Shown: one piece after another, positions 43,127-55,223 of the stretch
Layout of the letters: the number at the start of each line of letters is the position of its first letter
Numbering within the stretch: the stretch's first letter is position 1
Assembly: GCF_021044625.1 (NCBI RefSeq)
Contig: NZ_CP087999.1
Location: forward strand, 3,307,001-3,371,000
Direction of reading: 5' to 3'
Source of the DNA: Geomonas sp. RF6
GTDB lineage: Bacteria; Desulfobacterota; Desulfuromonadia; Geobacterales; Geobacteraceae
DNA: 64,000 nt
Position numbers and translations under genes: made by a program
Notes under the pieces: model-generated
What the model was told of the DNA's origin: nothing
What the model saw: the letters and a program-made list of their open reading frames with translations, nothing else
Databases searched by the model: none

Positions 43127-43425
43127 GTTCCATCGTCTGATTTCTTGTCGGCTCGCTGATCAGCTCCGCACTGCCGGAATTTCGTACCCGAATGCTTCCT
43201 GACCTTGTAGGCGCATCACGACCAGGTGGCGGATAAGGTGTCGGAATTCTTTACAGTGTGGACGCATTGTTGCGTCTGTTCTGTCTGATTACTTTACAGT
43301 CCCTAAAAGGATGCCACATGATGTGGTCTGAAAATGCATTTATTTCGGTGTATTAAGTTCGAAAATCCACCTCGGCATAAATTGTGCTTATGCAGAGCCA
43401 TTAAACAACCCCTTGGAGGTGGACA
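43127..43425. other. Intergenic, PEP-CTERM gene upstream region
   Basis: About 300 bases with no gene. It holds the palindrome GACGCATTGTTGCGTC at 43261-43276 (possible activator site) and the sigma-54 promoter below. AT-richer than the neighbouring genes. Confidence 0.6.
43373..43388 (+). promoter_or_regulatory. Sigma-54-type promoter of PEP-CTERM gene 1
   Basis: CGGCAT-AAATT-GTGCT: GG at -24 and GC at -12 with correct spacing to TGGCAC-N5-TTGCT. The predicted start is about 27 bases before the ATG at 43426, leaving room for GGAGG. Confidence 0.65.
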
Positions 43426-43977
43426 ATGAAATGGTCAAAGAGCAAACTCAGGAGCGTCATAGTCATTGCTGTTGCATTACTGGCGTTGGCTGGTATAGCT
43501 AACGCATCCCCGACCCAATGGACGGCATCGTTTGGGAGCCCCGTTTGGGACACTCATTACAGTCTGGATCTCACAAATCTTGTACCGAACTACGTACCAG
43601 GCGTAGACTCACTCACTTCAGCATTTTTCTCACTCGACTATACCAACAGTGGGAACAACAATAATGGAACTGCAACTTTTGAAGTCTTCGTGAACAACGT
43701 CATTACTGGAACGGTTAATTTTTCCAAGCCGAGTGAAAACGTCCTGTTACCTTTGCCAGCAGCTACACTTTCGGATTTAAGTACAAATGGCATGATAGAT
43801 TTTTACTTCCATCGGGCGCCAGGCAGCCACGAATTTGATATCCAAACCGCTGTCTTCGTTGTAAATGGTTCGCACGAAGAGTCGGCTCCCGTCCCGGAAC
43901 CAGGAACCATGATGCTGCTCGGAGCAGGATTTCTCGGCCTCGCGGTCTGTGGAAAACGCCGCAGAAATAATGCGTAA
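43426..43977 (+). CDS. PEP-CTERM sorting domain protein 1
   Basis: 183 aa. Signal peptide to about residue 27 (ALLALAGIANA), a short beta-rich, Asn/Thr/Ser-rich body, and a C-terminal sorting tail VPEPGTMMLLGAGFLGLA followed by CGKRRRNNA (PEP motif, membrane helix, basic end). Such proteins are cleaved by an exosortase and reach the surface or exopolysaccharide matrix. GGAGGTGG precedes the ATG. The gene is AT-richer than its neighbours. Its promoter is of sigma-54 type. The body is not recognised. Confidence 0.88.
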   Translation: MKWSKSKLRSVIVIAVALLALAGIANASPTQWTASFGSPVWDTHYSLDLTNLVPNYVPGVDSLTSAFFSLDYTNSGNNNNGTATFEVFVNNVITGTVNFSKPSENVLLPLPAATLSDLSTNGMIDFYFHRAPGSHEFDIQTAVFVVNGSHEESAPVPEPGTMMLLGAGFLGLAVCGKRRRNNA

Positions 43978-44055
43978 TCCGTTTCCGTTCCTCGAAACCT
44001 AGTTGTGGTGAAAGATGTTGGGCGATCGACGGTTGTCGTAGAGTTTGAAGAGGAA

Positions 44056-44093
44056 CAGGAAGGGGCGGGCCAGCAAGGCGCCGCCCCTTCCTG
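44056..44093 (+). terminator. Terminator of PEP-CTERM gene 1
   Basis: CAGGAAGGGGCGG, 12-base loop, CCGCCCCTTCCTG (13-bp perfect stem), then CGTTTAG. It has a modest T-run. Confidence 0.7.
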
Positions 44094-44361
44094 CGTTTAG
44101 GGGCCAACAACCCGAACTGGCGCAGACCTGGCGGATCCGCAGGTCGATGGACCTAGGCGGATCGATAGGGGGCTCGCCAAATGCCTCACATGACGTGCTT
44201 CTTTGATGGTTGGGGCGGCATGGGCGACTGTTCAGGAAAAGGTCGTCAGGGTGGGGCCGGAACTGAGACGTCAGGATTCTCTGCAGCGTAAACTTTTGGC
44301 GGAGAATGTTGAAGTCCGGCGAGGTGGCCGATGGCAGATTGGTATAACGTGGCGCTGAAGT
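44094..44361. other. Intergenic, nothing recognised
   Basis: GC-mixed DNA between the PEP-CTERM terminator and the CPBP protease gene. No gene or repeat is supported. Confidence 0.5.
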
Positions 44362-45078
44362 CTACCAAAGCCACCAGTTATGGGTCAGGAGCACGTAGCC
44401 GGCGAGGGCGAGGTTTGTGACGGCGTGGGCGAGGACGCATTGGGCGAGGCTGCGGGTTTTGTACAGGAGGACGTTGTAAATTATTCCAGCAGTGACACCG
44501 GCAACGAAAAGGTGGTGCTCCAGCCCGAAGAGAAGGCTGGAGACTGCAAAGGACGTCCAGGTGAAGCGGCCGATGGGGACGGACTCGAAGTCGGGGTCGA
44601 CAATGTACCGGAGCAGGAAAGAGCGCCAGAAGAGCTCTTCCATGACAGGTACCACGAGGACTGCGCCTGCCACGCGTACCGCAGTCATCGCAAACCGGAT
44701 CGCGCCTTCCGGCAGGAGTGCCGGATCGAATCCCGCGGGACCTCCGACCACGGAGACGGTCCAGTCGAGGTAAATCCAGAGGATGAAGGTGACAACCCCG
44801 ACGATGCAGGAGGCCAGCGACACGCGCCTGTCGAGGAGATCTCTGAGGCGCAACTCAGGGTAGTGATTCCGGTATAGATAGAGAAGTGCCGCGACGGAAA
44901 ATGCCTTGAGCGGGTAGAGGTAGTACAGTGTCCCAGGAGGAAGGCTGAGCCACCCGTGGCTGCCGGTAAAGCGCACGCTCTCATCGACGGCGATGAAAGC
45001 CATGAAGAGGGCGAAGGGGAGGGTGCGAGATATGATCGCGTAGTTGAAGCCGGATACTCTGGCGGCTGTTTTAGTCAT
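44362..45078 (-). CDS. CPBP/CAAX-type intramembrane protease, PEP-CTERM-associated
   Basis: 238 aa with about seven hydrophobic helices. Protease motifs are present: EE..R in MEELFWRSFLLRY, FGLEHHLF and the final HAVTN. These are the metal/catalytic residues of CPBP glutamic proteases. A CAAX-protease-related family has been defined in exosortase/PEP-CTERM loci, and its position between two PEP-CTERM genes fits that. The role in surface sorting is not established. The start has no clear ribosome binding site. Confidence 0.82.
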   Translation of the reverse strand: MTKTAARVSGFNYAIISRTLPFALFMAFIAVDESVRFTGSHGWLSLPPGTLYYLYPLKAFSVAALLYLYRNHYPELRLRDLLDRRVSLASCIVGVVTFILWIYLDWTVSVVGGPAGFDPALLPEGAIRFAMTAVRVAGAVLVVPVMEELFWRSFLLRYIVDPDFESVPIGRFTWTSFAVSSLLFGLEHHLFVAGVTAGIIYNVLLYKTRSLAQCVLAHAVTNLALAGYVLLTHNWWLW

Positions 45079-45148
45079 AAAGTGTTAGTAGCACATCATT
45101 TGCGTCCCGTCGAGCGGGCGGCGCGGACAACTGGGAAATCGATGAAAA

Positions 45149-45181
45149 AAAAGGGCGACACGAGGCGGTGTCGCCCTTTCT
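45149..45181 (-). terminator. Terminator of PEP-CTERM gene 2
   Basis: AAAGGGCGACAC ... GTGTCGCCCTTT followed on the minus strand by a run of T (about eight). Lies about 25 bases after the stop. Confidence 0.85.
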
Positions 45182-45204
45182 TGTTATTATTCTATGCGAT
45201 CAGC

Positions 45205-45984
45205 CTAGGCATTCTTGCGGCGCTTCCCGTAGATGGCAAGGCCGAGGAACCCCGCGCCCAGCAGCATCATGGTGCCCGGCTCCGGAACTGCGGAGATGTC
45301 CTTCATCAGGAAGACTGTGTCGTTGTAGTCATAGTCGCCGTACGGGTGATCTTCAAATGCGATGATCCAGTCATCGCCGCCGTCCATCGGCTCTGTCGTC
45401 GTGCCGGATTTAGTCATACGTGTAACCGAAGAGCCGTCCAGCAGTTGATAGGTCAGAGCCCTCACAGAGGAAAGAGCGGGGGTGGTGTTCTTGTCGTCTT
45501 CGGTGTACGACTTAAATTGTTCGACGGTATCGAGCCAGAAAAAGCCAAAGACGTTGCCAAAGTTTGGCACCAGAACGTTGTCGTCTGTGTCGCAGAGGTC
45601 TCCGTTCACAATGGAGAAGGTTGCGGCGGTACCAGGACTTGCCTGGCTACGGTCGATCAGGAAATGCTCCTGCCCGTTCTGGGAGTAGATGCCGAGCTTG
45701 CCATTGGAATGCGCGGTGTAGAGGCTTACCAGAAAGGTGGAACTGTTGGCGTCCACACTCTTCCAGAGAGCGGCCGTCGACTGGCTAGTTACCGCATTAT
45801 AGAAGTTCTCGGTATTGTTGGGGCCCTTGACCTTGGCGTTCAGAATCTGCTGGAGGGAAAGTTCACCACCCGCAGAAGATGCACCGGGAACCACATCCCC
45901 GGGCCTGTCGTTGTATGGCAACGCGAACGCGCTGCCAGCGGTGAGAGTTGTAACAAGTGCCATCAATGCCAGTGTCCTTTTCAT
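45205..45984 (-). CDS. PEP-CTERM sorting domain protein 2, DUF4114-like
   Basis: 259 aa. Signal peptide to about residue 21 (TLTAGSAFA), a globular body with the DUF4114-like motif WIIAFEDHPYGDYDYNDTVFLM, and the sorting tail VPEPGTMMLLGAGFLGLA followed by IYGKRRKNA. The tail is identical to that of the gene at 43426 over its core, so both are likely handled by the same exosortase. GGAGGA precedes the ATG. Its -24/-12 promoter at 46041-46056 is near-consensus. Confidence 0.9.
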   Translation of the reverse strand: MKRTLALMALVTTLTAGSAFALPYNDRPGDVVPGASSAGGELSLQQILNAKVKGPNNTENFYNAVTSQSTAALWKSVDANSSTFLVSLYTAHSNGKLGIYSQNGQEHFLIDRSQASPGTAATFSIVNGDLCDTDDNVLVPNFGNVFGFFWLDTVEQFKSYTEDDKNTTPALSSVRALTYQLLDGSSVTRMTKSGTTTEPMDGGDDWIIAFEDHPYGDYDYNDTVFLMKDISAVPEPGTMMLLGAGFLGLAIYGKRRKNA

Positions 45985-46040
45985 CTCTTCCTCCTTTTGT
46001 ATTTAAAAAATGCATGGAACAAAAAGTTATTTCCCCTTAA

Positions 46041-46056
46041 TGCAACCGCCGTGCCT
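46041..46056 (-). promoter_or_regulatory. Sigma-54-type promoter of PEP-CTERM gene 2
   Basis: On the minus strand AGGCAC-GGCGG-TTGCA, almost the full TGGCAC-N5-TTGCA consensus. The predicted start is about 45 bases before the gene. An inverted repeat GCGAC-N9-GTCGC lies just upstream on the transcript (46077-46095) and could bind an activator such as PrsR. Confidence 0.8.
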
Positions 46057-46473
46057 GTTCTGTAACAGGCCGAAGTGGCGACGAACTGCTTGTCGCAGCC
46101 AGAGAGTGTGTAATGAAATCCGACACGCGAAAGATGCGCCACTCCGTCTGCCACCTCATGAGGGCGAGTATCTGGACCAACAGCCCTCACAACACGTCGG
46201 TCAGCCTGAGTCTCTATCCCGAAGGAGAAAGTGGGTTCAGACAGCACGACATTACCGCATTGAATGCGGTGTAAAAAAAATCGACAGTGAGACAACGAAA
46301 TAAGAGAGCTAAGGGGGAGATTATTAATTTCGAGTGACCTGGGCCTGTACTAGATTCACCGCCTGCGGCTCCCGACCCTTCCTGGGAGCTGTATCGGAGA
46401 GGAACGGTGGCTCCAAATAGCCGCCATTCTGCATTAAATGGTACCTTTCATAAGAGCTAGTTGAATATTTGTG
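46057..46473. other. Intergenic regulatory region between PEP-CTERM gene 2 and prsT
   Basis: About 420 bases with no gene. It contains the GCGAC-N9-GTCGC inverted repeat, and at about 46370-46400 a GGCTCCC...GGGAGCT hairpin. Confidence 0.55.
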
Positions 46474-46502
46474 TTGAAAATTAGAAAGCGTTCTGTTAAG
46501 AA
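46474..46502 (+). promoter_or_regulatory. Candidate sigma-70 promoter of prsT and the EPS operon
   Basis: TTGAAA (46474-46479), 17-base spacer, TAAGAA (46497-46502). No sigma-54 site was found here. Confidence 0.5.
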
Positions 46503-46581
46503 ATCCGACATCAACATTAATGTCAAATTATTCACTGTTGGCTGTTGGCCCTGTTCCGTTATCGCCAAGGGGGGACCCGCG

Positions 46582-49227
46582 ATGAAGTTCCTTACGATAA
46601 TGCTGCTCATCTTGCTGACCTGCACCGCTTGCGGAAGCAAGACCAAAGAGGCGCTGTACGCAGAAGGGGTAAAAAAGCTCAAGGAATCGAACCCGGCCGC
46701 TGCGGTGGTGTTCTTCAAGAACGCGCTGGAAAAGGACGCGAACTTCAGCGATGCCCGCTTCGAACTGGGAAAGGCGTACGCGGCGCTCGGCAAAAACGAG
46801 CAGGCGGAAAAGGAGTTCCAGAAGGTCCTGAGCCAGAACCCCTCCCGCGACGACGTCCTGCTTGAACTCGCGCGGGTGAAGAATGCGTCGGGAAAGGGTG
46901 ACGAGGCGGCTGCCCTCGCGGAGCAGTACCTCGCCAAGCACCCGGGGAATGTCGAGGGGCTCGAGGCGCTCGGCATCTCCTGCGCGGTGCGCAAGAAGTA
47001 TCCGGAAGCGCAAAACTACCTCCTGCAGGCGCTGGCCGCCGATCCGAAACGGAGCACCACCAAGCTAGAGCTCGCTTCTGTCACCTTCGCCGCGGGAGAT
47101 GCGGCAAAAGCGAAATCCCTCCTCACCGAAGTCCTCCAGTCCGAGCCGCGCAACTTCAAGGCTCTCTACCTCATGGCTACGCTCGAGAAGCGGCTCGGTA
47201 ACAGCGACGCCGCGGCTGCCATCTATCAGAAAATAGTGCAGCTGGACGAGAACCAGATCAATGCACAGTACAAGCTCGGTCTCCTGAACCTGGAAAAACG
47301 GGACCTCGCCAAGGCCGATGCCGCGGCTGACGACATGATCAAGAAGTACCCCAAGAAGGGGGACGGCTACCGCCTGAAGGGGCTCGTCAGTTTCTACCGC
47401 AAAAACTACACGGAGGCGATGGCCTCCCTGCAGCAGTCCCTCAAGCTCTCCCCGACCCTCGAGGGGTACCACTTCCTCGGGCTTTGCTACTACAACAAGG
47501 GGGAGCTGGAAAACGCCCTCAGCCAGTTCAGGATCATCCTCGACCGGGTCCCCACCTCGCGCCAGGCGAGGCTCATGACAGCAGAAACCCTCCTTGCCCA
47601 GAAAAGGACGGAAGACGCCATCACGGAAATCAAGAGGGTCATCGCCGCCGACGATTCCGATGCAGTCGCCCACAACCTGCTCGGCACAGCCTACATGTCC
47701 CAGGGGATGTTCAACGAGGCGATGCGCGAGCTGAACCGTGCCACGCAGCTCGATCCGAAGCTCGTCACCGCGCATCTTAAAAAAGGGTACTTCTACTTCA
47801 GCAGAGGGAAGAATGAAGAGGGGGAAACGGAGCTTGCCACAGCCGTGCAGGCGGCACCGAACGTCCTCAACACCCGTCTCCTCCTGGCCTCCTACTACCA
47901 GAGGCAGGGGAAGAGCGCGAAGGCGCTCTCGGTGCTGCAGGCAGGGCTGAACGGCGGGAAGGGGGATGCGCCCCTTTACAACGCCGTTGCCGCACTCCAG
48001 TTTTCTGGCGGACAGAAGGCCGAGGGGGTGAAGGCGCTGGAGAATGCCAAGCGGGTCGACCCCTCCTTTCCTGCCTCCTACCACAACCTTGCCGGCTACT
48101 ACGCCGCCTCCGGCGATTACCCGCGCGCCATCGCCGAACTGGGCGAGCTTCTGAAGAAAGATCCGAAAAACATGCGGGGTCTCCTCGGCATCGCGACTCT
48201 CAGCGAGGTCAGCGGCAAGGACGCCGAGGCCCTGCGCTATTATCAGAAAGCTGCGGAGACAAACGCTCCGGAAGGGATCCTCGCCCTCGCGGGTTACCAT
48301 CAGAAGAAGGGGGCTCCGCAAAAGGCGCTCTCGGCCATCGATGACGCACTGAAGCAGAACAACCGGGTGGTACCTCTCCTGGAGGCGAAAGGGCGGATAC
48401 TTCTCTCCCAGAAGGAGACGAGCAAGGCTATTAAAGTATTCGACGAGGTGGAAGCCCTCGACCAGGAGAAAGGTATAGCACTGAAGATTTCCGCCTATGT
48501 CGCTGCCCGCAACGGAGCAAAAGCGATCGACGAGGCAGGGAGACTGATCGCCAAACACCCGGGGGGAGCGCAAGGGTATCTCCTTCTTGCTTCGGTGTAC
48601 CAGGGGGTGAACGATCTGAACTCCGCCATAGCAGAGGCGAACAAGGCGGTAAAGGCGGATCCGAAGAGTGTGGAGGCGCGCCTCATGCTCGGGAGGCTTC
48701 ATCAGGCGAAGAAGGATTTCACGTCGGCGGCCGCCTACTATCAGGAGGCTCTGAAGGTAAAACCGGACTCGGTTCCCGCGCAATTTGCCGTCGCGTCACT
48801 TCTGGACGCCACCGGAAAGAAGAAGGAGGCGGTGGCGAGGTATCGGGCGATCGTGGATCACGGCGAGAGCTATGTTCCGGCGCTCAACAATCTCGCCTAC
48901 CTCTACGCCGACGGATACGGCAAGAAGGAAGAAGCGCTCCGGCTGGCGATCACCGCTTTCAAGCTGCAGCCGGGAGATGCGGGGGTGCTCGACACCCTTG
49001 GTTATGCACTTCTGAAAAACGGCCGCTACCCCGACTCCATAAAGGCCCTCGAGCGTGCGGCGACCCTCATGCCCTCCGATCCGACCGTGAAATACCACCT
49101 GGGGCTCGCCTACCATCAGAGCGGCAACAAAGCGAAGGCGCAGCAGGCGCTGGCGCAGTGCCTCTCCCTTGGGGAGTGCGCCGACACACCCGCTGCCCGG
49201 ACGTTACTGGCACAGGTAAAGAAGTAG
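46582..49227 (+). CDS. prsT: PrsT, PEP-CTERM system TPR-repeat lipoprotein
   Basis: 881 aa. A lipobox-like signal (LLTCTAC) leads to some two dozen TPR-like helical repeats covering nearly the whole protein, e.g. AAVVFFKNALEKDANFSDAR, KKEAVARYRAIVDHGESYVP and PDSIKALERAATLMPSDP. The length and the position match the PrsT family of XrtA/PEP-CTERM loci. It is likely a scaffold that holds the polysaccharide or sorting machinery together. ATG 46582 is preceded by GGGGGG; the 37-residue upstream extension is not credible. Confidence 0.9.
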   Translation: MKFLTIMLLILLTCTACGSKTKEALYAEGVKKLKESNPAAAVVFFKNALEKDANFSDARFELGKAYAALGKNEQAEKEFQKVLSQNPSRDDVLLELARVKNASGKGDEAAALAEQYLAKHPGNVEGLEALGISCAVRKKYPEAQNYLLQALAADPKRSTTKLELASVTFAAGDAAKAKSLLTEVLQSEPRNFKALYLMATLEKRLGNSDAAAAIYQKIVQLDENQINAQYKLGLLNLEKRDLAKADAAADDMIKKYPKKGDGYRLKGLVSFYRKNYTEAMASLQQSLKLSPTLEGYHFLGLCYYNKGELENALSQFRIILDRVPTSRQARLMTAETLLAQKRTEDAITEIKRVIAADDSDAVAHNLLGTAYMSQGMFNEAMRELNRATQLDPKLVTAHLKKGYFYFSRGKNEEGETELATAVQAAPNVLNTRLLLASYYQRQGKSAKALSVLQAGLNGGKGDAPLYNAVAALQFSGGQKAEGVKALENAKRVDPSFPASYHNLAGYYAASGDYPRAIAELGELLKKDPKNMRGLLGIATLSEVSGKDAEALRYYQKAAETNAPEGILALAGYHQKKGAPQKALSAIDDALKQNNRVVPLLEAKGRILLSQKETSKAIKVFDEVEALDQEKGIALKISAYVAARNGAKAIDEAGRLIAKHPGGAQGYLLLASVYQGVNDLNSAIAEANKAVKADPKSVEARLMLGRLHQAKKDFTSAAAYYQEALKVKPDSVPAQFAVASLLDATGKKKEAVARYRAIVDHGESYVPALNNLAYLYADGYGKKEEALRLAITAFKLQPGDAGVLDTLGYALLKNGRYPDSIKALERAATLMPSDPTVKYHLGLAYHQSGNKAKAQQALAQCLSLGECADTPAARTLLAQVKK

Positions 49228-53193: not shown

Positions 53194-54030
53194 ATGAGCA
53201 GAATCGAAGTGGCGATGGAAAAGGCTGCCCGGCTCCGGCAGGAGCGGGAGGTGGCGGGCGAGCCGGCTGCAGCGCCTCACCCCGCAGCGGCTCCACCGAA
53301 GAGACCTGCGGCAGCGTCAGCGCAATACGGGGTACTGTCGCCGACGGACCCGTTCCTCGTGAACCTGCACGACCCGCACTCGGCAACGGCCGAGGAATAC
53401 CGGAAGCTCAAGTCGGCGCTGGTGAAGATGACCACCGGCGAGGTGTTCCGCAACACGATCATGGTGACGAGCTCCGTGCCGTGCGAGGGGAAAAGCCTCA
53501 CCGCGCTCAATCTCGCCGTCAGCCTCTCCCAGGAGCTCGATCACACGGTGCTCCTGGTGGACGCGGACCTGCGCCGCCCCTCGGTGCACCGCTACCTCAA
53601 CGTGGAGCAGGGGGTGGGGCTTGCCGACGTCCTGACCGGCAAGGCGCAGATCGGGGAGACGATCGTTCCCACGGGGATCGGGAAGCTCTCCGTCATCAGG
53701 GCGGGGTCGCAGGTGGACAACCCGGCGGAGCTCTTTTCGTCGCAGCACAACAAGGCGGTCATCGCGGAGCTGAAGAACCGCTATCCGGACCGCTACATAA
53801 TAATCGACACCCCGCCGGTACTCCCCTTTGCGGAGTCGCGCTCGCTGGCGCATCTCGTGGACGGGGTTCTCTTCGTTGTCATGGAGCGCCTGGCCTCGCA
53901 GGCAAACATCAGGGAGGCGGTGGAGTCCCTGAAGGGATGCCCGATCCTCGGGACGGTGTACAACGCGGCCGCCGTCGACGGCACCGACAGCCGTTACTCG
54001 TACTATCAGGGGTACGAGCGCACCGAGTGA
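53194..54030 (+). CDS. Tyrosine autokinase, XrtA/PEP-CTERM-associated
   Basis: 278 aa. N-terminal coiled-coil/Ala-Pro linker, then the BY-kinase domain: Walker A-type SSVPCEGKSLTALNLAVSL, A' motif LLVDADLRRPSVHRYL, Walker B RYIIIDTPPVLPF. The C-terminal tail has the tyrosine cluster YSYYQGY, the usual autophosphorylation site. It partners with the chain-length protein to control polymerisation and export. Encoded 25 bases after it. Confidence 0.92.
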   Translation: MSRIEVAMEKAARLRQEREVAGEPAAAPHPAAAPPKRPAAASAQYGVLSPTDPFLVNLHDPHSATAEEYRKLKSALVKMTTGEVFRNTIMVTSSVPCEGKSLTALNLAVSLSQELDHTVLLVDADLRRPSVHRYLNVEQGVGLADVLTGKAQIGETIVPTGIGKLSVIRAGSQVDNPAELFSSQHNKAVIAELKNRYPDRYIIIDTPPVLPFAESRSLAHLVDGVLFVVMERLASQANIREAVESLKGCPILGTVYNAAAVDGTDSRYSYYQGYERTE

Positions 54031-54113
54031 CCTTGTTGTAGCAAGGCGGGGATCGCGTGCGAGCTTCCGGCGCACAGACTCTTCCGCTCCTTTCCCGTAA
54101 TGCAGGAGTTCCC

Positions 54114-55223
54114 ATGTACGAGGCATTCTTCGGCCTGCGAAAAAAACCGTTCGAACTGGTGCCCGACCCGGAGTTCATCTACCTGAGCCGCTCGCACCGC
54201 AAGGCTCTTATCTATCTCGATTACGGCATCAGGGAGCGGGCCGGGTTCATTCTCCTCACCGGCGACGTCGGGTCAGGGAAGACCACCCTCATCCGAGACA
54301 TCCTGAACAAGGGGTACGCCAACGTCACCCTTTCGAAGATATTCAACACGCGCGTGACCGCGGAGCAGCTCCTTGCGATGATAAACGACGACTTCGGCCT
54401 TCCGGTGGCGGGGAAGGACAGGGTGTCGCTCATGCGCGACCTGAACGATTTCCTCCTGGAGCAGTATGCCGCTGGGCACCAGCCGATCCTCATCATCGAC
54501 GAGGCGCAGAATCTCGAGGCGGATCTTCTGGAAGACATCCGCATGCTCTCGAACCTGGAGAGCGCCCATGGAAAGCTCCTGCAGATCGTCCTGGTGGGGC
54601 AGCCCGAGTTGCGCGAGACGCTCGCGGCGCCCGAGCTTTTGCAGCTGAGGCAGCGGATCAGCATCAACTGCCACCTGAAGGCGCTCGGCCGCGAGGAGAT
54701 GACAGAGTACGTCCTGCACCGCATGGAGGTCGCGGGGAACCGCGAGGCGCTGATCTTTCCGCGGGAGACGCTCGATCTCGTGTACCAGTACAGCAGGGGG
54801 ATCCCGAGGCTCATCAACATCATCTGCGACTTCCTCATGCTCTCCGCTTTTGCGGAGGAGGTGCGGGAAATCACCCTGGAGATGGCGCGCGACGTGGTGG
54901 GGGATCTCGATTTCGAGCAGCACTTCTGGGGGGGAGGTGAAGGGGAAGGGCCTTCGACCCACTCCGCCGTCGTCGCCGCAACCGGCGTCACGGCGCAAGG
55001 CGGCGAGATCGTGGCGGCGCTGGGCGAACTCGCCGGGCTCCTCGCCCTCCTGCGGGACGATTTCAACGCCCACGTGGAGAAGGATGAACGGGCGATATCG
55101 GAGCTCGGGGCGAATCTGGCGAGGCTGAATGGGGCGCTGGCGCAGCTTGAGGTCCAGACTAACCTGCGTCAGCCTGAGGTGGGGCTGGTGAGAAGGCTCT
55201 TCGGGGCGACCGAGAAGCCATGA
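54114..55223 (+). CDS. ExeA/GspA-like ATPase, XrtA/PEP-CTERM-associated
   Basis: 369 aa. AAA-type ATPase starting MYEAFFGLRKKPFELVPDPE with Walker A LLTGDVGSGKTTL, Walker B PILIIDEAQNLEADLLE and the sensor-like RQRISINCHLKAL. A helical, Gln/Ala-rich C-terminus (about 290-369) follows. This is the ATPase regularly found in XrtA loci; its exact role in export is not known. AGGAG precedes ATG 54114. Its stop overlaps the next gene (ATGA). Confidence 0.9.
   Translation: MYEAFFGLRKKPFELVPDPEFIYLSRSHRKALIYLDYGIRERAGFILLTGDVGSGKTTLIRDILNKGYANVTLSKIFNTRVTAEQLLAMINDDFGLPVAGKDRVSLMRDLNDFLLEQYAAGHQPILIIDEAQNLEADLLEDIRMLSNLESAHGKLLQIVLVGQPELRETLAAPELLQLRQRISINCHLKALGREEMTEYVLHRMEVAGNREALIFPRETLDLVYQYSRGIPRLINIICDFLMLSAFAEEVREITLEMARDVVGDLDFEQHFWGGGEGEGPSTHSAVVAATGVTAQGGEIVAALGELAGLLALLRDDFNAHVEKDERAISELGANLARLNGALAQLEVQTNLRQPEVGLVRRLFGATEKP

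Follow-up and report, generated by a model that had tools for sequence, protein, structure and literature searches.

Sigma-54 promoters with a shared upstream motif before two PEP-CTERM genes of Geomonas sp. RF6, a probable instance of PrsK/PrsR control

Two PEP-CTERM genes with matched sorting tails and unrelated bodies raise the question of whether they are also switched on through the same activator site. The genes lie in a stretch of 64,000 nucleotides of Geomonas sp. RF6 (contig NZ_CP087999.1, positions 3,307,001–3,371,000 of the 5.26-Mb single-contig genome), which we call the window; five-digit coordinates below refer to it. Gene 1 occupies 43426–43977 (+) and gene 2 occupies 45205–45984 (−). 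An earlier, sequence-only reading had placed a sigma-54 (RpoN) promoter and an inverted repeat before each gene, suggested control by PrsK/PrsR and left open whether the two repeats, which differ, represent one activator site. We found that the upstream regions of both genes have in common a 17-mer, TGTCGGA(A/T)TTCNTTACA, which that reading had overlooked. As judged from the sequence, both promoters therefore have the same kind of site, and the question is settled. It is highly probable that genes 1 and 2 are targets of PrsK/PrsR acting via sigma-54, as Haft et al. (2006) predicted in general.

The products of both genes were confirmed as PEP-CTERM proteins. Gene 1 encodes 183 amino acids with an N-terminal signal and the tail VPEPGTMMLLGAGFLGLAVCGKRRRN, and gene 2 encodes 259 amino acids with a weak DUF4114-like stretch and a tail of the gene 1 type. 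TIGR02595 scored 20.4 bits for gene 1 and 21.2 bits for gene 2 (cut-off 16), and PF07589 scored 31.8 and 31.3 bits, respectively. The BLASTP alignment of the two proteins is limited to the last ~46 residues, where VPEPGTMMLLGAGFLGLA is identical, in agreement with a common tail on unrelated bodies. Both bodies remain below the equivalog cut-off of PepA, NF033554 (34.6 and 16 vs 80 bits).

The predicted −24/−12 element is present before each gene. That of gene 1, CGGCATAAATTGTGCT, is located at 43373–43388 (+), 37 nt before the ATG, and reads CGGCAT-AAATT-GTGC (43373–43387). That of gene 2, AGGCACGGCGGTTGCA, is located at 46041–46056 (−), 56 nt before the ATG, and reads AGGCAC-GGCGG-TTGCA (46056–46041). 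With a simple weighted score of our own, the maximum of which is 19.7, the two elements reach 16.8 and 18.7. Such scores occur in this genome at per-base rates of 1.4e-4 and about 1e-5, respectively (474 kb of both-strand sequence), and the chance of meeting one in a 40-nt stretch is ~0.005 for a score of 16.8 and ~0.0004 for a score of 18.5.

The shared 17-mer, hereafter motif 1, has the consensus TGTCGGAWTTCNTTACA and is located about 50–75 nt before the −24/−12 element. It is a predicted PrsR site. Gene 1 has two copies, a distal one without mismatches, TGTCGGAATTCTTTACA (43239–43255, +), and a proximal one with two mismatches, TGTCTGATTACTTTACA (43282–43298, +), 43 nt from the distal copy and 74 nt before the −24 position. 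Gene 2 has one copy without mismatches, TGTCGGATTTCATTACA (46109–46125, −), 52 nt before its −24 element. A weak motif-1-like copy with three mismatches, TGTCGATTTTTTTTACA, lies at 46270–46286 (−). When at most one mismatch was allowed, motif 1 had seven matches in the genome vs none for the reversed control.

A motif of this kind is already known. Haft et al. (2006; PMC1569441) describe a 17-nt motif ending in TTTACA, at times repeated, followed by a sigma-54 motif, with 62.8 ± 10.6 nt (range 32–92) between the most 3′ copy of the first motif and the second. They place the −24(GG)/−12(GC) element 23–221 nt before the start codon, report the module before 99 of 167 proteobacterial PEP-CTERM genes and state that it tracks PrsK, PrsR and PrsT. 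By its length, its end and its spacing, the 17-mer of the window matches the first motif as described there. The end is TTTACA in TGTCGGAATTCTTTACA and ATTACA, one base off, in TGTCGGATTTCATTACA. The spacers, 52 nt for gene 2 and 74 nt for gene 1 when counted from its proximal copy, are within 32–92 nt, and the distances of 37 and 56 nt to the start codon are within 23–221 nt.

We searched the whole genome for the module with a model that had not seen it. Fifteen modules from related genomes, each consisting of motif 1, a spacer of 50–72 nt and a sigma-54 element, were aligned without those of Geomonas sp. RF6 itself and turned into a sequence-only covariance model, the E-values of which are rough. 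The best match in the 5.26 Mb was the promoter of gene 2 (E 5.9e-4), followed by the promoter of a third PEP-CTERM gene at 3,383.8 kb (E 6.8e-4), a gene at 177 kb (E 0.033), a partial match before xrtA/crp (E 0.046) and, in the fifth place, the promoter of gene 1 (E 0.058). All 11 matches are motif-1 sites. Five of them have the full module, and three of these five stand before PEP-CTERM genes, for which P is ~1.6e-7 if five promoters are drawn at random among an assumed ~4,700 genes, and 0.007 when genes 1 and 2 are excluded.

The enrichment before PEP-CTERM genes, the absence of which the sequence-only reading had named as a refutation, is thus strong, but it concerns a minority of them. Thirteen genes of the genome score over the TIGR02595 cut-off (one is doubtful, as no start codon was found), and within 450 nt of each we looked for motif 1. 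The module was found for three of them, gene 1, gene 2 and the gene at 3,383.8 kb, which on this sequence evidence form a subset regulon; the module is not general. Three other PEP-CTERM genes have sigma-54-like sites scoring 17.4–18.5 and no motif 1. A pair of PEP-CTERM genes at ~4,433.2 kb has a strong −24/−12 element, TGGCACCCTTATTGCC, and no motif 1, which suggests that this pair is served by another sigma-54 activator.

The regulators required for such control are encoded in the genome. PrsR (TIGR02915) was identified at 3,432.8 kb with 618.4 bits (equivalog cut-off 502.6), and PrsK at 3,430.7 kb with 517 bits, above its cut-off; the two are in tandem, the PrsK match ending 109 nt upstream of PrsR. 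RpoN, at 2,821.4 kb, scored 454 bits, also above cut-off. The exosortase XrtA is located at 3,427.8 kb (212.7 bits vs cut-off 208). Another exosortase, encoded at 3,026 kb, is nearest to XrtV/XrtB and under both cut-offs, and a third match at 1,375 kb is weak. With respect to control by PrsK/PrsR and RpoN, the sequence-only reading fits in that these regulators are present and the held-out model recovers both promoters; its palindromes, discussed below, and the generality of the control fail.

Motif 1 follows PrsR among relatives as well. In 58 related genomes we counted 102 occurrences with at most one mismatch vs five for the reversed pattern, and 98 of the 102 are in PrsR-positive genomes. 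The motif is present in 23 of 38 PrsR-positive and 3 of 20 PrsR-negative genomes (Fisher P 0.001, which is too optimistic because the genomes are kin). Many of the sites retrieved from relatives precede a sigma-54 element and a PEP-CTERM open reading frame. Four relatives, among them the one we label G030, share with the window the divergent arrangement of prsT and a PEP-CTERM gene that has a sigma-54 element, here gene 2, and in G030 a CPBP gene also follows the latter. The PEP-CTERM bodies in the compared slots of relatives are unlike each other. Promoter elements, shared motif, spacing and conservation, together with the presence of PrsK, PrsR, PrsT, XrtA, RpoN and TIGR03008, are all directly visible in the DNA.

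Regarding the remaining motif-1 sites, several point beyond PEP-CTERM genes. In the window, the copy TGTCGGATTTCTTAACA (46494–46510, −) is located 72 nt before the ATG of prsT (46582–49227, +), which encodes the TPR lipoprotein of the XrtA/PEP-CTERM system (TIGR02917, 612.8 bits vs cut-off 312). G030 has the identical 17-mer at the same place, there 64 nt before prsT and amid poorly conserved intergenic DNA, and a similar copy lies 76 nt before prsT in another relative. No sigma-54 element fitting prsT was found at this copy of motif 1, which by eye may overlap a possible sigma-70 promoter. Separately, five relatives have a strong sigma-54 element, in most cases TGGCATNNNNNTTGCT, that is directed towards prsT and lies 385–497 nt upstream of it, and no motif 1 at up to three mismatches was found beside it.

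Near xrtA, an inverted motif 1 at 3,427,499 lies 72 nt from the sigma-54 element GGGCACTTTTTTTGCT (score 18.2; both within 3,427,411–3,427,515). There is no sigma-54 promoter for xrtA behind this motif; the promoter points instead towards a divergent gene of the Crp/Fnr family (3,426,617–3,427,348, −), which by position is the gene served. In one relative, the module also stands before a gene whose product reads as Crp/Fnr-like. Two full modules precede genes for proteins without a PEP-CTERM tail, a FlgT_N-domain protein at ~177.3 kb (spacing 64 nt) and a secreted HYR/PKD-domain protein at ~958.9 kb (spacing 62 nt). A copy after prsR, at 3,434,220, precedes a gene of the GSU3473 family (73 amino acids) and has a poor sigma-54 element, TGGTGTGATTTTTGAA, at 62 nt. 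For a perfect motif 1 at 4,943,491, a search of both strands up to 350 nt away gave no sigma-54 element. From these sites we propose, only tentatively, that PrsR would also drive the tail-less secreted proteins and, through GGGCAC-N5-TTGCT and the inverted motif 1, the Crp/Fnr regulator encoded divergently from xrtA, and would touch prsT, so feeding back on its own machinery. If true, the role of PrsR in this lineage is wider than switching on PEP-CTERM genes.

The sequence CTGTTACAG-N-ACAGGCA overlaps the −24 position of gene 2 (46051–46068, −) and of the gene at 177 kb (~177.2 kb, −). In a simple comparison of the promoters, GTTAC is seen near the corresponding position in the modules of several relatives.

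Several points weigh against control of both genes by PrsR. The promoter of gene 1 is the weaker one throughout, with a −24/−12 score of 16.8, an E-value of only 0.058 in the held-out search and two mismatches in the proximal motif 1, and its perfect copy is 117 nt away, outside the range of Haft et al. (2006). Within the 450 nt searched, no module was found for 10 of the 13 PEP-CTERM genes. Experimental proof that PrsR binds motif 1 was not found in the literature examined, and, according to the study of DVUA0057, the PrsR homologue of Desulfovibrio vulgaris, a motif for this regulator had not been validated (PMC3333781). Moreover, sigma-54 activators other than PrsR are numerous in the genome, with about 25 strong PrsR-like matches.

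Motif 1 could accordingly be real and bound by another NtrC-type regulator, with PrsR acting elsewhere. Besides these 25 or so regulators, the absence of motif 1 (at most one mismatch) from 15 of the 38 PrsR-positive genomes speaks for this. We consider it improbable, since the motif tracks PrsR among the 58 genomes and occurs directly after prsR, beside prsT and in the crp–xrtA intergenic region, and DVUA0057 pulled down five of five predicted PEP-CTERM targets in vitro (PMC3333781).

Even less can be said for the palindromes as activator sites, which would imply two different activators for the two promoters. Both inverted repeats named by the sequence-only reading exist and do lie upstream of the −24/−12 elements, GACGCA-N4-TGCGTC at 43261–43276 before gene 1 and GCGAC-N9-GTCGC before gene 2, where the coordinates had been one base off and are in fact 46078–46096. 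A region of 300 bp is expected to contain by chance 0.8–0.9 inverted repeats with six-base arms (gaps up to 12) and 3.8–3.9 with five-base arms. On the chance rate and the unlikeness of the two palindromes we reject them as candidates; what the genes share is instead a perfectly matched motif 1, which recurs before PEP-CTERM genes of relatives and tracks PrsR. Expression of both genes chiefly from sigma-70 promoters, with −24/−12 elements that match by chance, is hardly credible: the gene 1 element is imperfect (CGGCAT-N5-GTGC) and a sigma-70-type scan gave two sites in the region, but 2.0 are expected by chance, and the −24/−12 elements stand at the spacing seen in relatives as part of the module found by the held-out model.

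Under control by PrsK/PrsR, the sequence of events would most likely be as follows. PrsK would phosphorylate PrsR, an NtrC-type enhancer-binding protein, which would bind TGTCGGAWTTCNTTACA upstream of the −24/−12 element, at a distance of 74 nt for gene 1 and 52 nt for gene 2; gene 1 has another copy 43 nt beyond the first. PrsR would then drive open-complex formation by RpoN-RNA polymerase. XrtA would recognise the PEP-CTERM tails of both secreted proteins, and their sorting would be in step with the exopolysaccharide made by the adjacent locus. The sorting is inferred, as are the role of PrsR as binder, its phosphorylation and the start sites, these three from the prediction of Haft et al. 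(2006), the rpoN1 data on Aquincola and the in-vitro pull-down in D. vulgaris.

The surrounding genes of the window belong largely to the same system. As had been noted, a gene for a CPBP/CAAX-type intramembrane protease (44362–45078, −) sits between the two PEP-CTERM genes, and it is a clear member, with no difference seen, of the exosortase-associated family TIGR03008 (267.9 bits vs cut-off 81.05). To our knowledge, no function has been tested for this family. A 12-bp hairpin with A/T runs at both sides (45150–45179), which separates gene 2 from the CPBP gene, is likely a terminator with a direction towards gene 2, as its sequence indicates, which would make gene 2 a single-gene unit. Downstream of prsT, the polysaccharide locus begins with the XrtA/PEP-CTERM system glycosyltransferase TIGR03013 (49280–50665, +, 524 bits), and profile matches identify the XrtA-associated tyrosine autokinase (TIGR03018) and the XrtA system ATPase (TIGR03015) at 53194–55223 (+).

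The finding is known in kind and brings a few small new leads. The 2006 prediction is confirmed in one more genome by a held-out whole-genome test, and the activator site is corrected. This yields a defined motif (TGTCGGAWTTCNTTACA, 50–75 nt before −24/−12) and a few genes, some of them outside the PEP-CTERM class, that are predicted as PrsR targets.

Among known systems, the DVUA0057 regulon resembles the present one in that its regulator, of the NtrC type, adjoins an exopolysaccharide/exosortase locus and binds promoters of PEP-CTERM genes in vitro; it differs in the organism and in that the binding motif was not validated there (PMC3333781). In Aquincola tertiaricarbonis RN12, pepA has a −24/−12 element at its start site, and its expression, linked with prsT in floc formation, requires RpoN1 (PMC9850573). 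The likeness lies in a mapped −24/−12 PEP-CTERM gene adjoining prsT with a predicted upstream enhancer. However, pepA is upstream of prsT there whereas gene 2 is divergent from prsT here, and neither body in the window is PepA by the NF033554 cut-off. With the module described by Haft et al. (2006), the present one shares a 17-nt motif that is sometimes repeated, a −24/−12 element, the spacing, single-gene units, and prsT, prsK, prsR and an exosortase within the same region of the genome. We see no real difference from the published module, apart from its presence before 3 of 13 PEP-CTERM genes here vs 99 of 167 in the survey; sites before genes that lack a PEP-CTERM tail, as seen here, were noted there in general, too. 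The promoters of genes 1 and 2 are a textbook instance of the known PEP-CTERM sigma-54 module, an observation that is real but ordinary.

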